Shown: piece after piece, positions 8,661 through 49,459 of the stretch
Layout: every line of letters begins with the position of its first letter
Position numbering within the stretch: the first letter of the stretch is position 1
Source of the DNA: Halanaerobium saccharolyticum
Lineage (GTDB): Bacteria > Bacillota > Halanaerobiia > Halanaerobiales > Halanaerobiaceae
Reading direction: 5' to 3'
Length of the DNA stretch: 64,000 bases
NCBI RefSeq assembly: GCF_003053565.1
Contig: NZ_QAXS01000004.1
Span: forward strand, 62,001 to 126,000
Translations under genes and position numbers: made by a program
Notes under the pieces: model-generated
Told to the model about the DNA's origin: nothing
Database searches by the model: none
The model's input: only the letters and a program-made list of their open reading frames with translations

Positions 8661-10706
8661 GTGTGCTCCGTAAATTATTCTGATAATAGGTGAAAGTCCT
8701 ATCTATGTTGTGGCATGTATCATGTAGAAGTCAACAATGACAGGGTGTTCACCGTGAGGTGGAATCTGAAGAGTCTGAGACGTGCTGTTAGTCCAAAACA
8801 TTATGTGAACCAGAGGTGGCATCTGTAAATGGCGATTCGCCTAAGAAACGAAGAAGCTCAATGCCGGCATAACAACCATGCAATCTAGGCTGGATTTGCA
8901 GATGTGATTAGGGTTGGAATGACAGCAAGATGGAATAATTGACCGGAGGAGTTCTGTATTTGTCTAAAACTAAAACTAGTTTTAGTAAGTCGCGGTATAA
9001 CCTGAACGGGAAAACCAAGATAAAGTAGATACAGAGTTCAGATGGCGTCAATAGTAGCTATGATGACTGGTCCTTAGATAGCAGGGTGACCTGCAGGAGG
9101 ATAAAGCCAGTTTAGCAAAGGACAGCCAGCGCAGTCGAAGTTGAAGATAATACAGGAGTGGTAGACAGATTTTAATGGTTTAAACACTGCTTAAAGCAGT
9201 GGGTCAGGCTGGTAGCCGGAGGGAGAAATCTAATCTCAAAGGTGGTAGGTCAGAAACACCATAACCTCAGTAGTAAAATGTCAGAGGGGGCGATTGGTGA
9301 GAACCTAAAACGCGGCTGATAATATTATGAAAATAGGGTCTGTTTAACTGGACTGTAGAATTGGAGACTGGTAAGTCGTGAAGTAAGGACTGGTGAAAGA
9401 GATAACTGAGAAGACGTATTACACCCTTAAAGATAAAGTAACAAAGATTAGGAATATGAAAGCAGCCGCAAAACATGTCTTAGATAACAGTGGTAGTGCA
9501 GGTGTTGACAGAATAGATACAGTAGAATTCAAAGAAAACTATTCAGTCCACATGAGAGAACTATACAGAGAATTCTTAGAAGATAGATATCAACCCAAAC
9601 CAGCACTGAGAGTATTTATCCCGAAAAGTGATGGAAGACAGCGACCACTTGGAATACCCACAGTTAAAGACAGAATAGCTCAGGCGGCAGTGAGAGGAAT
9701 ACTGGAGCCAATATATGAGAAAGAATTCTGTGACTGTTCTTTTGGATTTAGAAAAGGTAAATCGCAGATGGACGCGATAAACCAAATTGAAGAATATAAA
9801 GAACAGGGATACAAATGGGTATTAGATGCAGATATCAAAGGGTTTTTCGATAATATAGACCATAAGCTTTTAATAGAATTCATAAAGCAAAAAGTAACAG
9901 ATGGTTGGGTAATTGAAATAATAAAATCGTGGCTGACCATGGGAGTCATGAAAGATGGAGAATATATACCCACAGAAAAAGGAACCCCTCAGGGTGGCGT
10001 AATATCGCCACTGCTGGCAAATATCTTTCTGCATGAGTTCGATAAAGTAATGACAGAAAGAGGGTATAAACTGGTGCGATTTGCTGATGATTTTGTGGTT
10101 ATGACGAAATCAAAAAGGAAAGCTAAAAGAGCTTATGAAGTAGTTAAAGAAATTATTACGGAAAAACTTAAATTAGAACTGCATCCAGAAAAGACAGTAA
10201 TAACTAACTTTGGTGAGGGTTTTGTATTTTTAGGATTTGAATTCATAGCCTGGAGGTACAAAAGACCTAGAAAGAAATCATTAGAAAAATTCAAAGACAA
10301 AGTTAGAAAAGTTACTAAGAGAAATCAGCCCTGGAAAGTGGACTCAATTATAAAAAGGCTAAACGCTAAAATATATGGCTGGGCTAATTATTTCGGTCAT
10401 GGAAATGTGAAGACACTTTTCAGGAGCTTGGATGAATGGATACGAATGCGGTTAAGGTCATATATAGAGAAAAAGAAAGCAGTTATGAATCAAAACAAAA
10501 GAATCCCCAATTCCTTTTTCAGGAAGAAGGGACTCGTTTCACTACTTACTAGATTGTCCTAGAGGATTAAAATATACAGCTGTGGTAACACAGCGACGAA
10601 GACTTATTCCTTGAGACGGGGCAACGACTGACGGAAAGCTGTATACGGGAGAACCGTACGTGCAGTTTGACGAGGGGTCCCAGCTGAAAGGCTGGTCCTA
10701 CTCTAT
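8661..10706 (+). mobile_element. group II intron with maturase gene
   Basis: Self-splicing retroelement of about 2.05 kb. The 5' end starts GTGTGCTCCG at 8661 (GTGCTCC at 8663 is the alternative); about 730 nt of structured RNA precede the maturase gene. The 3' end has a recognisable domain V, AAGCTGTAT(...)GTACGTGCAGTTT with an internal GGGAGAACC turn (about 10635-10670), then a domain VI hairpin CCAGCTGAAAGGCTGG with a bulged A near the end CTACTCTAT. It is inserted directly behind the spoVS terminator. The catalytic triad reads AGC rather than the CGC of class C. The exact ends are estimates. Confidence 0.88.
9393..10562 (+). CDS. ltrA: group II intron-encoded reverse transcriptase/maturase
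   Basis: A 389-residue intron-encoded protein that helps the intron RNA fold and splice, then reverse transcribes it at the target. The RT domain (about 30-290) has RVFIPKSDGRQRPLGIPT, DADIKGFFDNI (D147) and the active-site FADD at 230-233, with F in place of the usual Y. Domain X follows (LNAKIYGWANYF). It ends without an HNH endonuclease domain, so mobility would rely on nicked or single-stranded targets. GTG start with AGGA just upstream. The reading frame is intact. Confidence 0.93.
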   Translation: MKEITEKTYYTLKDKVTKIRNMKAAAKHVLDNSGSAGVDRIDTVEFKENYSVHMRELYREFLEDRYQPKPALRVFIPKSDGRQRPLGIPTVKDRIAQAAVRGILEPIYEKEFCDCSFGFRKGKSQMDAINQIEEYKEQGYKWVLDADIKGFFDNIDHKLLIEFIKQKVTDGWVIEIIKSWLTMGVMKDGEYIPTEKGTPQGGVISPLLANIFLHEFDKVMTERGYKLVRFADDFVVMTKSKRKAKRAYEVVKEIITEKLKLELHPEKTVITNFGEGFVFLGFEFIAWRYKRPRKKSLEKFKDKVRKVTKRNQPWKVDSIIKRLNAKIYGWANYFGHGNVKTLFRSLDEWIRMRLRSYIEKKKAVMNQNKRIPNSFFRKKGLVSLLTRLS

Positions 10707-48243: not shown

Positions 48244-48385
48244 CCGTTTTAAGCTATTTTTATTGAGAATAAAATATTAATTTCAGTTTCTTTACACAAT
48301 TACCGAATTTAGCCGAGAAAGCATCGCTCATGTTAATGGGCGGGAATGAATCGGCTGGTTTATAGTTAAAAAATCTTTATATTTG

Positions 48386-48414
48386 TTGAACGTTTGTTTC
48401 CTTAGTGATATAAT
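48386..48414 (+). promoter_or_regulatory. promoter within the 48.3-48.8 kb element
   Basis: TTGAAC (48386-48391), 17-bp spacer, TATAAT (48409-48414). The spacer start reads GAACGTTTGTTT (48388-48399), which fits the LexA-box pattern, but such a short pattern can arise by chance. Confidence 0.55.
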
Positions 48415-48420
48415 ATAGTT

Positions 48421-48786
48421 AGTAATACAAGTGAATATAAGGAGTTGTACTAACTAACCCTTTAGTGCGTAAAATGTTCAAGGTACTCACTAAAAACTGT
48501 AACTGGATTATAGTCTAACTTGCCGTGCAAGTATCTAATCTGTGATTAGAATAGAATATAATCTGTATTGCAGGGAGTATGCAGCAAACTATCTGCTTGT
48601 ATGATTAAAGTACAGGTGCCTGAGTTGGTATATCCATATCTCAGGAGGGTTGATGGCACAGCCTGAAGTCTGCGTTATACTTGCCTACCAGAAATGGACT
48701 GGCATTTAATCAGCAGACAACCTCGCAAGTTTCTTTAAGGAATCCTCGTTGGTGAATTTTAACGAACGAGCGGGGAGGATGTCAAT
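48421..48786 (+). ncRNA. putative structured RNA, possibly omega-RNA-like
   Basis: Downstream of the promoter there is no coding frame but a series of good hairpins: CTTGC/GCAAG, TCTAATC/GATTAGA, GCAG/CTGC, CCTGAG/CTCAGG nested in GTGCC/GGCAC, and the terminal CTCGTT/AACGAG. The density of helices suggests a functional RNA of about 360 nt. If omega-RNA-like, bases after about 48786 would be the guide. There is no database support here. Confidence 0.4.
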
Positions 48787-49270
48787 AAACTACTCTGGCA
48801 ATAATGGCCACATAATTTTCTCCATATTTTTCTGCACATTTAGGACAGGTTGTATACCACATATACCAGTCTTCTATAGAGTAGCCCTTATTAACTGCAT
48901 ATTTTTCGAAATCATTACACCATTTTTCAGTTTCCTTATAATCTCCTTCATAAACCCTGCAGAGAAACTTTCCGGAGAGAGAAACATTTTTCATGCCCGG
49001 TATTTTTCTATCAACTGCCAGATAGACGTCCATATTCCATCTGGAAGTATGATTAGAAAGACACAGATTATCTTCAATTTCTGCTCCAGCTTCAGTAATT
49101 TTTTGATCCAGTTTTTTCATCACCGCTCCAAAGCGGATTGGCATATGGAATGCGGTATGAACTCTATCTTTAACAAAATTCTTATCGTTCCATTCGAATA
49201 GTTTTCCATCCCATTTTTCATGATCAAAGCGCGGACAGCAAACTTCTTCTTCAACAGCATTTTTCTTCAT
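48782..49270 (-). CDS. conserved hypothetical protein (hydrolase-annotated family)
   Basis: A 162-residue soluble protein of a widespread but uncharacterised family. Distinct blocks: CCPRFDHEKWDGK, FHMPIRFGAVMKKLD, NHTSRWNMDVYLAVDR and the CxxC in WYTTCPKCAEKYG. Cysteine pairs at both ends suggest metal binding. The frame begins with a TTG at 49300; AAGGAG is best spaced to the ATG at 49270. Its TGA stop lies inside the right end of the 48.3-48.8 kb element. Confidence 0.75.
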   Translation of the reverse strand: MKKNAVEEEVCCPRFDHEKWDGKLFEWNDKNFVKDRVHTAFHMPIRFGAVMKKLDQKITEAGAEIEDNLCLSNHTSRWNMDVYLAVDRKIPGMKNVSLSGKFLCRVYEGDYKETEKWCNDFEKYAVNKGYSIEDWYMWYTTCPKCAEKYGENYVAIIARVVY

Positions 49271-49459
49271 TGTCATCCTCTCCTTATTGACCTCTAACAA
49301 TATAAATTAAATTTCTTCTTAAATACAATCCCTGATCAACTAAAGAAAAGGCTTAAGCTACCTAATTTCTTTCTCTAAATAAATTATATCTCAAATTTCA
49401 GAAAAATGCATAATTATTTTTCCCGATTTTAAAACCCAGCTCTCTCAATCTTTTTCTTT

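Follow-up and report, generated by a model that had tools for sequence, protein, structure and literature searches.

A gene-less IS608-like element in Halanaerobium saccharolyticum with a predicted omega RNA headed by a recurrent pseudoknotted module

Transposons of the IS200/IS605 family are moved as a single strand by TnpA, and TnpB with its omega RNA cuts the vacated site, which favours restoration of the element. Guide RNA loci that stand apart from the nuclease gene are known from the standalone IscB omega RNAs (HEARO), which are like the locus described here in that separation and unlike it in the nuclease family and in the RNA, for which there was no Rfam match here. The locus lies in a stretch of 64,000 nucleotides, hereafter the window. 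With IS608 and other IS200/IS605 elements that encode a Y1 TnpA, the window element shares the tetranucleotides TTAC, TCAA, AAAG and GAAT and the lack of a target duplication; in contrast to them, it has neither tnpA nor tnpB and carries a structured RNA gene instead. The PATEs and MITEs of this family (PMC7290912) are likewise non-autonomous and have the ends of an autonomous relative, but those known consist of ends only or of ends with gene fragments, whereas the window element adds a conserved RNA domain and its own promoter. The omega RNA of TnpB, or reRNA (PMC8612924), is homologous to the 3′ half of the window element, which also ends at the right end beside host DNA, yet the window element lacks tnpB and its RNA is headed by a 62-nt module. 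IStrons (PMC4227781) combine structured RNA with IS605-type ends and have ORF-less forms, whereas in the window element no group I intron was found and the promoter is internal. We found no description of such elements in the literature, where subscription journals were poorly covered, so that this is weak evidence of novelty.

The original prediction, made from the sequence alone, offered two alternatives: a tnpB-less transposon that still makes an omega-RNA-like RNA, or an undescribed structured RNA. Our results support both at once. An empty site, ends held in common with tnpA and tnpB copies and a covarying omega-RNA fold bear out the first, as a tnpB-less transposon that still carries such an RNA, and a 62-nt module that recurs in many unrelated ORF-less IS605-type elements bears out the second.

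Borders, ends and relatives of the element

The borders are fixed by an empty site in a genome of the same genus (G005), which reads ATTATTAC joined directly to TAAATTACTC where the window has AATTAC, the 482-bp element and then TAAACTACTC. Because the joined flanks are continuous in G005 (86% identity) across the uninterrupted site TTAC/TAAA, the element spans exactly 48304-48785 on the plus strand, with no target duplication. The predicted element at 48301-48786 is real, but with slightly different borders. Its end features are as follows.

48300-48303 (+): TTAC, the target and left cleavage tetranucleotide, outside the element (G005 empty site; sister copies)
48304-48785 (+): complete non-autonomous IS608-like element, 482 bp (empty-site borders; lengths of relatives)
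48311-48356 (+): left-end two-level hairpin with internal guide AAAG at 48318-48321 (ssDNA fold; homology)
48740-48785 (+): right end, with guide GAAT (48740-48743), hairpin and cleavage site TCAA (48782-48785) (empty-site border)

The first base of the element lies directly 3′ of TTAC, which also stands 5′ of the left end in nearly all sister copies listed, and the final four bases are TCAA. TTAC and TCAA correspond to the cleavage tetranucleotides of IS608, and AAAG and GAAT to its guides. The two-level left hairpin is as first described and is the left end of an IS608-like element, homologous to the left ends of copies with tnpB or with tnpA and tnpB; in the window its inner hairpin is short of two foot pairs relative to the copies on contigs 39 and 17 of the host genome (C39 and C17; the genome is G000). 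The right end, recognized at the outset as similar to those of IS200/IS605 elements, consists of GAAT, a hairpin and TCAA, an IS608-like end. Its DNA fold is weak in single-stranded folding, and guide tetranucleotides are present 5′ of both subterminal hairpins. No ORF of at least 40 aa lies wholly inside 48304-48785, in agreement with the predicted absence of a reading frame. As the element itself encodes no Y1 TnpA, while relatives with the same ends do, it counts as a non-autonomous derivative. Its position directly behind a fixed tetranucleotide, the lack of a target duplication, the subterminal hairpins with their guides and the ends common to its relatives identify the locus as a non-autonomous IS608-like element of the IS200/IS605 family that transposed exactly. 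Reading the junction showed that the insertion point is the 3′ end of a neighbouring minus-strand gene, whose native stop codon is split. The new stop of this gene (window 48782-49300, minus strand) comes from the last bases of the element, and its protein gains one residue.

The host genome holds 12 partial or full DNA matches to the element, and relatives measure 53, 482-539, 1478-1560 or 1803-2059 bp. Sister elements with the same ends, the support named with the original prediction, carry tnpA and tnpB, tnpB alone or just 53 bp. The copy on C17 (1478 bp) has the ends and the promoter of the window element and encodes a 365-aa TnpB that matches Cas12f1-like_TNB, OrfB_IS605 and solved TnpB/Cas12f structures. 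An autonomous copy with the same ends in G008 (2059 bp) encodes a 129-aa Y1 TnpA together with a 365-aa TnpB. In the ends-only copies of about 53 bp, on contigs 24, 45 and 55 of G000, the left hairpin runs straight into the right border. Copies of the window type without Tnp genes occur on contig 39 of G000 (539 bp), in G003 at apparently the same site as C39, and in G046 (484 bp). A search of G000 for an IS608-type TnpA found only two Y1 proteins, which are longer and RAYT-like in look; a TnpA would therefore have to come from elsewhere, and the window copy may now be stuck in place. Ends-only elements of about 53 bp, with the right border TGTCAA, are seen at L014 1061-1113, L015 ~1388-1441 and L016 ~1756-1809; they are among the smallest possible mobile IS605 derivatives.

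The promoter and the omega-RNA-like 3′ half

Inside the element, the plus strand carries a promoter and, downstream of the 62-nt module treated below, two further structured domains, with flanking DNA next to them outside the element:

48386-48414 (+): promoter TTGAAC-17-TATAAT, predicted start near 48421 (same promoter in the C17 tnpB copy)
48489-48585 (+): multi-branched linker domain, specific to the end type of the window (RNAalifold, four copies)
48586-48785 (+): omega-RNA-like 3′ half, starting within what is left of the 3′ end of tnpB (alignment with tnpB-borne copies)
48786-48805 (+): flank that would serve as the omega-RNA guide, directly 3′ of the right end (from known TnpB omega-RNA biology)

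The promoter is where it was predicted. Sites of this grade number 3 against 2.5 expected by shuffling, so that a single match is not unusual alone; among 46 distinct homologous modules, 13 have an exact TATAAT at most 30 nt upstream, against 1.4 expected. The RNA predicted to follow (48424-48785) folds with an MFE of -104 kcal/mol (z -3.5), a stability that none of 100 shuffled sequences equalled, and contains well over the five good hairpins first counted. One structured RNA is encoded behind a promoter common to tnpB copies, and would be transcribed from it. We propose that this RNA is a chimera in three parts, opening with the 62-nt pseudoknotted module, continuing through a structured linker and closing with an omega RNA that belongs to the matching TnpB. 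We hold this explanation as a whole to be fairly probable. A promoter-like site (11/12) on the minus strand at window 48785-48756 points antisense from the right end inward and is not kept in the C39 copy.

The original statement that no tnpA or tnpB remains holds for reading frames, but about 15-20 nt near 48586-48600 resemble the end of tnpB. We aligned the region from this point to the right border in eight sequences, two tnpB-less and six from tnpB copies or remnants. In a structure of 40 pairs, 98.1% of the cells are paired, against 35-45% in slid controls, and two-sided changes occur in 20 of the 40 pairs, a count reached by none of 500 shuffles. The 3′ half is therefore, by homology, an omega (guide) RNA of the tnpB-linked kind, a structured RNA that ends at the right end. 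Stems of the linker also show two-sided changes among the four copies folded with RNAalifold.

These pairs bear on whether the element is simply a deletion derivative once moved by TnpA, with its internal RNA structure a functionless leftover. From the 53-bp copies in G000 it is clear that an element can move with nothing but its hairpin ends, and a PATE-like ends-only element has been described in Halanaerobium hydrogeniformans (PMC7290912). On the other hand, two-sided changes preserve the pairing in the additional bases, roughly 430 in number, both among tnpB-less copies and against tnpB copies, and the pairs of the module are likewise kept across very distant hosts. Since the 53-bp copies also show that TnpA needs none of the helices of the 3′ half, their upkeep favours a function as RNA, and we regard an inert remnant as improbable. 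We think it more doubtful still that the RNA antagonizes autonomous elements as a decoy that occupies or regulates TnpB: having the omega-RNA scaffold in common, it would compete for TnpB, but the right end, TCAA and the adjacent guide are all kept, as in a working guide RNA.

Structure of the 5′ module

The 5′ part of the predicted RNA forms a compact module with two stems and a pseudoknot.

48427-48488 (+): 62-nt pseudoknotted 5′ module (covariance model; pair counts)
48432-48438/48474-48480 (+): P1, the outer stem
48447-48453/48462-48468 (+): P2, the inner stem
48459-48461/48481-48483 (+): pseudoknot that joins the P2 loop to the three bases directly following P1

In a plain MAFFT alignment of 13 sequences, 99.5% of cells pair. 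Fitting 38 distinct sequences to the structure of the model gave 97.9% of cells paired, against 31-46% in slid controls, with two-sided changes in 11 of 14 pairs (0/500 shuffles); P2 has such changes at all seven of its pairs. The pseudoknot is paired in 107 of 114 cells and shows two-sided changes at each of its three pairs (0/2000 shuffles), with alternatives that include GCT/AGC, CAT/ATG and CCC/GGG. Paired cells of the module include 29 G-T and 9 A-C combinations, the bias to be expected of a plus-strand RNA. Covarying stems, the support that the idea of a structured RNA called for, were thus found in the 3′ half, the linker and the module.

Rfam 15 gave no match in the element or the module at curated or loose thresholds, in keeping with an undescribed RNA, and in 27 related loci it returned only unrelated riboswitches, tRNAs and weak noise. 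These searches also speak against an ORF-less IStron, in which a group I intron with IS605 ends would be spliced from transcripts. Such ORF-less forms are known (PMC4227781), and the window element likewise has structured RNA within an element of IS605 type; but no group I intron was matched at E<=10 in the window or at E<=1 in the 27 related loci, the RNA begins inside the element behind its promoter rather than at the border, and the linker varies between end types. We consider this reading very unlikely. A group II intron start, suggested by GTGCG at the junction of P2 and GTAAA, was dropped because these bases form one arm of the covarying P2 stem. Elsewhere in the window, 10634-10706 (+) matches a group II intron domain (Rfam RF00029, 44.6 bits, above threshold).

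Several positions outside the stems are nearly invariant, namely A3-A4, T6, GTT, one loop A and GTAAAA. The compactness of the pseudoknot, the almost unchanging unpaired residues (AA, GTT, A, GTAAAA) and the place at or near the 5′ end of mobile-element RNAs would suit a catalytic RNA, such as a ribozyme that cleaves itself and so trims a solo omega RNA at its 5′ end. No Rfam ribozyme family was matched, and a protein site would explain the conserved bases just as well; we treat a ribozyme as possible, with a low probability. The favoured reading is that the module, as a 5′ domain, serves to stabilize or process the RNA or to recruit a factor where there is no tnpB message.

The module varies in detail. 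At L115, L107 and L117, an ACCTTG just upstream of the module offers a second partner for the AGGT that follows P1; this pairing would replace the pseudoknot and resemble a switch. Larger P2 loops with a recurring insert, a GCGATAACCAAGC-like hairpin, occur at L048, L078, L079, L086, L092 and L118. In some end types (L051, L053, L065, L068) an extra 5′ hairpin, such as ACAAGG...CCTTGT, stands between promoter and module.

Distribution of the module and a proposed role

The covariance model found the module in 14 of 59 Halanaerobiia genomes and, in a sample of 398 genomes from across Bacillota, in 13, of which eight lie outside Halanaerobiia; a scan of genome contigs with a degenerate pattern added one Clostridiales and one Synergistaceae MAG. 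A pattern match in Lachnospiraceae (L109), with sequence unlike the module, appears to be due to chance. The same pattern was not found in viral contigs. The module recurs at the head of ORF-less IS605-type elements of about nine end types, in Halanaerobiia, other Bacillota and the Synergistaceae MAG. When flanks were inspected by eye, most copies had an IS605-type right end within a few hundred bases, with a foot of the GAAT or GAAG type, a hairpin and then TCAA, TTCA or TTCAC. None of 57 module loci has TnpB within the element, the sole TnpB found lying 3.6 kb off in another element, and none of 30 loci with tnpB-bearing or ends-only elements has the module, even at E<=1.

Several end types have a TnpB-bearing partner. 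An element in G048 is present in about ten copies with common borders at different sites, and was not found in plasmids. Its 3′ 100 nt are ~95% identical to a right end in the same genome that lies directly behind a TnpB gene in both fetched copies (L141 and L142), and these TnpBs are only ~28-29% identical to the window-type TnpB. The 3′ part of a third end type (L068) is common to TnpB-bearing elements in G050, G046, G007 and contig 61 of G000. A search for a TnpB-bearing partner of the fourth end type tested (L079) found none. In three end types, then, the 3′ half is the omega RNA of distinct TnpBs, which are ~28-35% identical between types. One and the same module is joined to omega RNAs that belong to three or more distinct TnpBs, which argues that it may answer a requirement of solo omega RNAs in general and not of a single TnpB.

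TnpB and its omega RNA belong to systems that are ancestors of Cas12. From the known biology of TnpA and TnpB, the simplest account is that the element borrows both proteins in trans and supplies its own guide. We therefore think it rather likely that the element is a parasite of autonomous IS605 elements, relying on TnpA in trans, providing its own omega RNA to TnpB in trans and carrying the module as a dedicated 5′ domain. TnpA of an autonomous relative would move the element as single strands to sites after TTAC. The omega RNA would run into host DNA as its guide, and TnpB made elsewhere in the cell would bind it and cut the vacated site of TTAC and guide, so that repair could restore the excised copy. 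We hypothesize that the module stands in for the tnpB message that was lost and, as a 5′ domain, renders the solo omega RNA stable and defined or keeps it so; candidate roles are protection of the 5′ end, processing or recruitment of a shared factor. A more speculative suggestion, which we advance tentatively, is that the 62-nt pseudoknot is a new and portable class of RNA, either a ribozyme or a binding site for a host factor of wide conservation, and that it frees the omega RNAs of unrelated TnpBs and has let gene-less, RNA-only transposons arise many times. That gene-less elements whose TnpB partners are unrelated have a conserved 5′ RNA domain in common suggests a shared requirement in the making of a working solo guide RNA, one that could also matter for the design of stable TnpB guide RNAs.

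Some copies of the module are truncated or have no clear right end, among them L116, L119, L120 and L080. At L119, from ~1650, a truncated module element lies directly upstream of an Hsp20-like gene, for which it might act as a leader.
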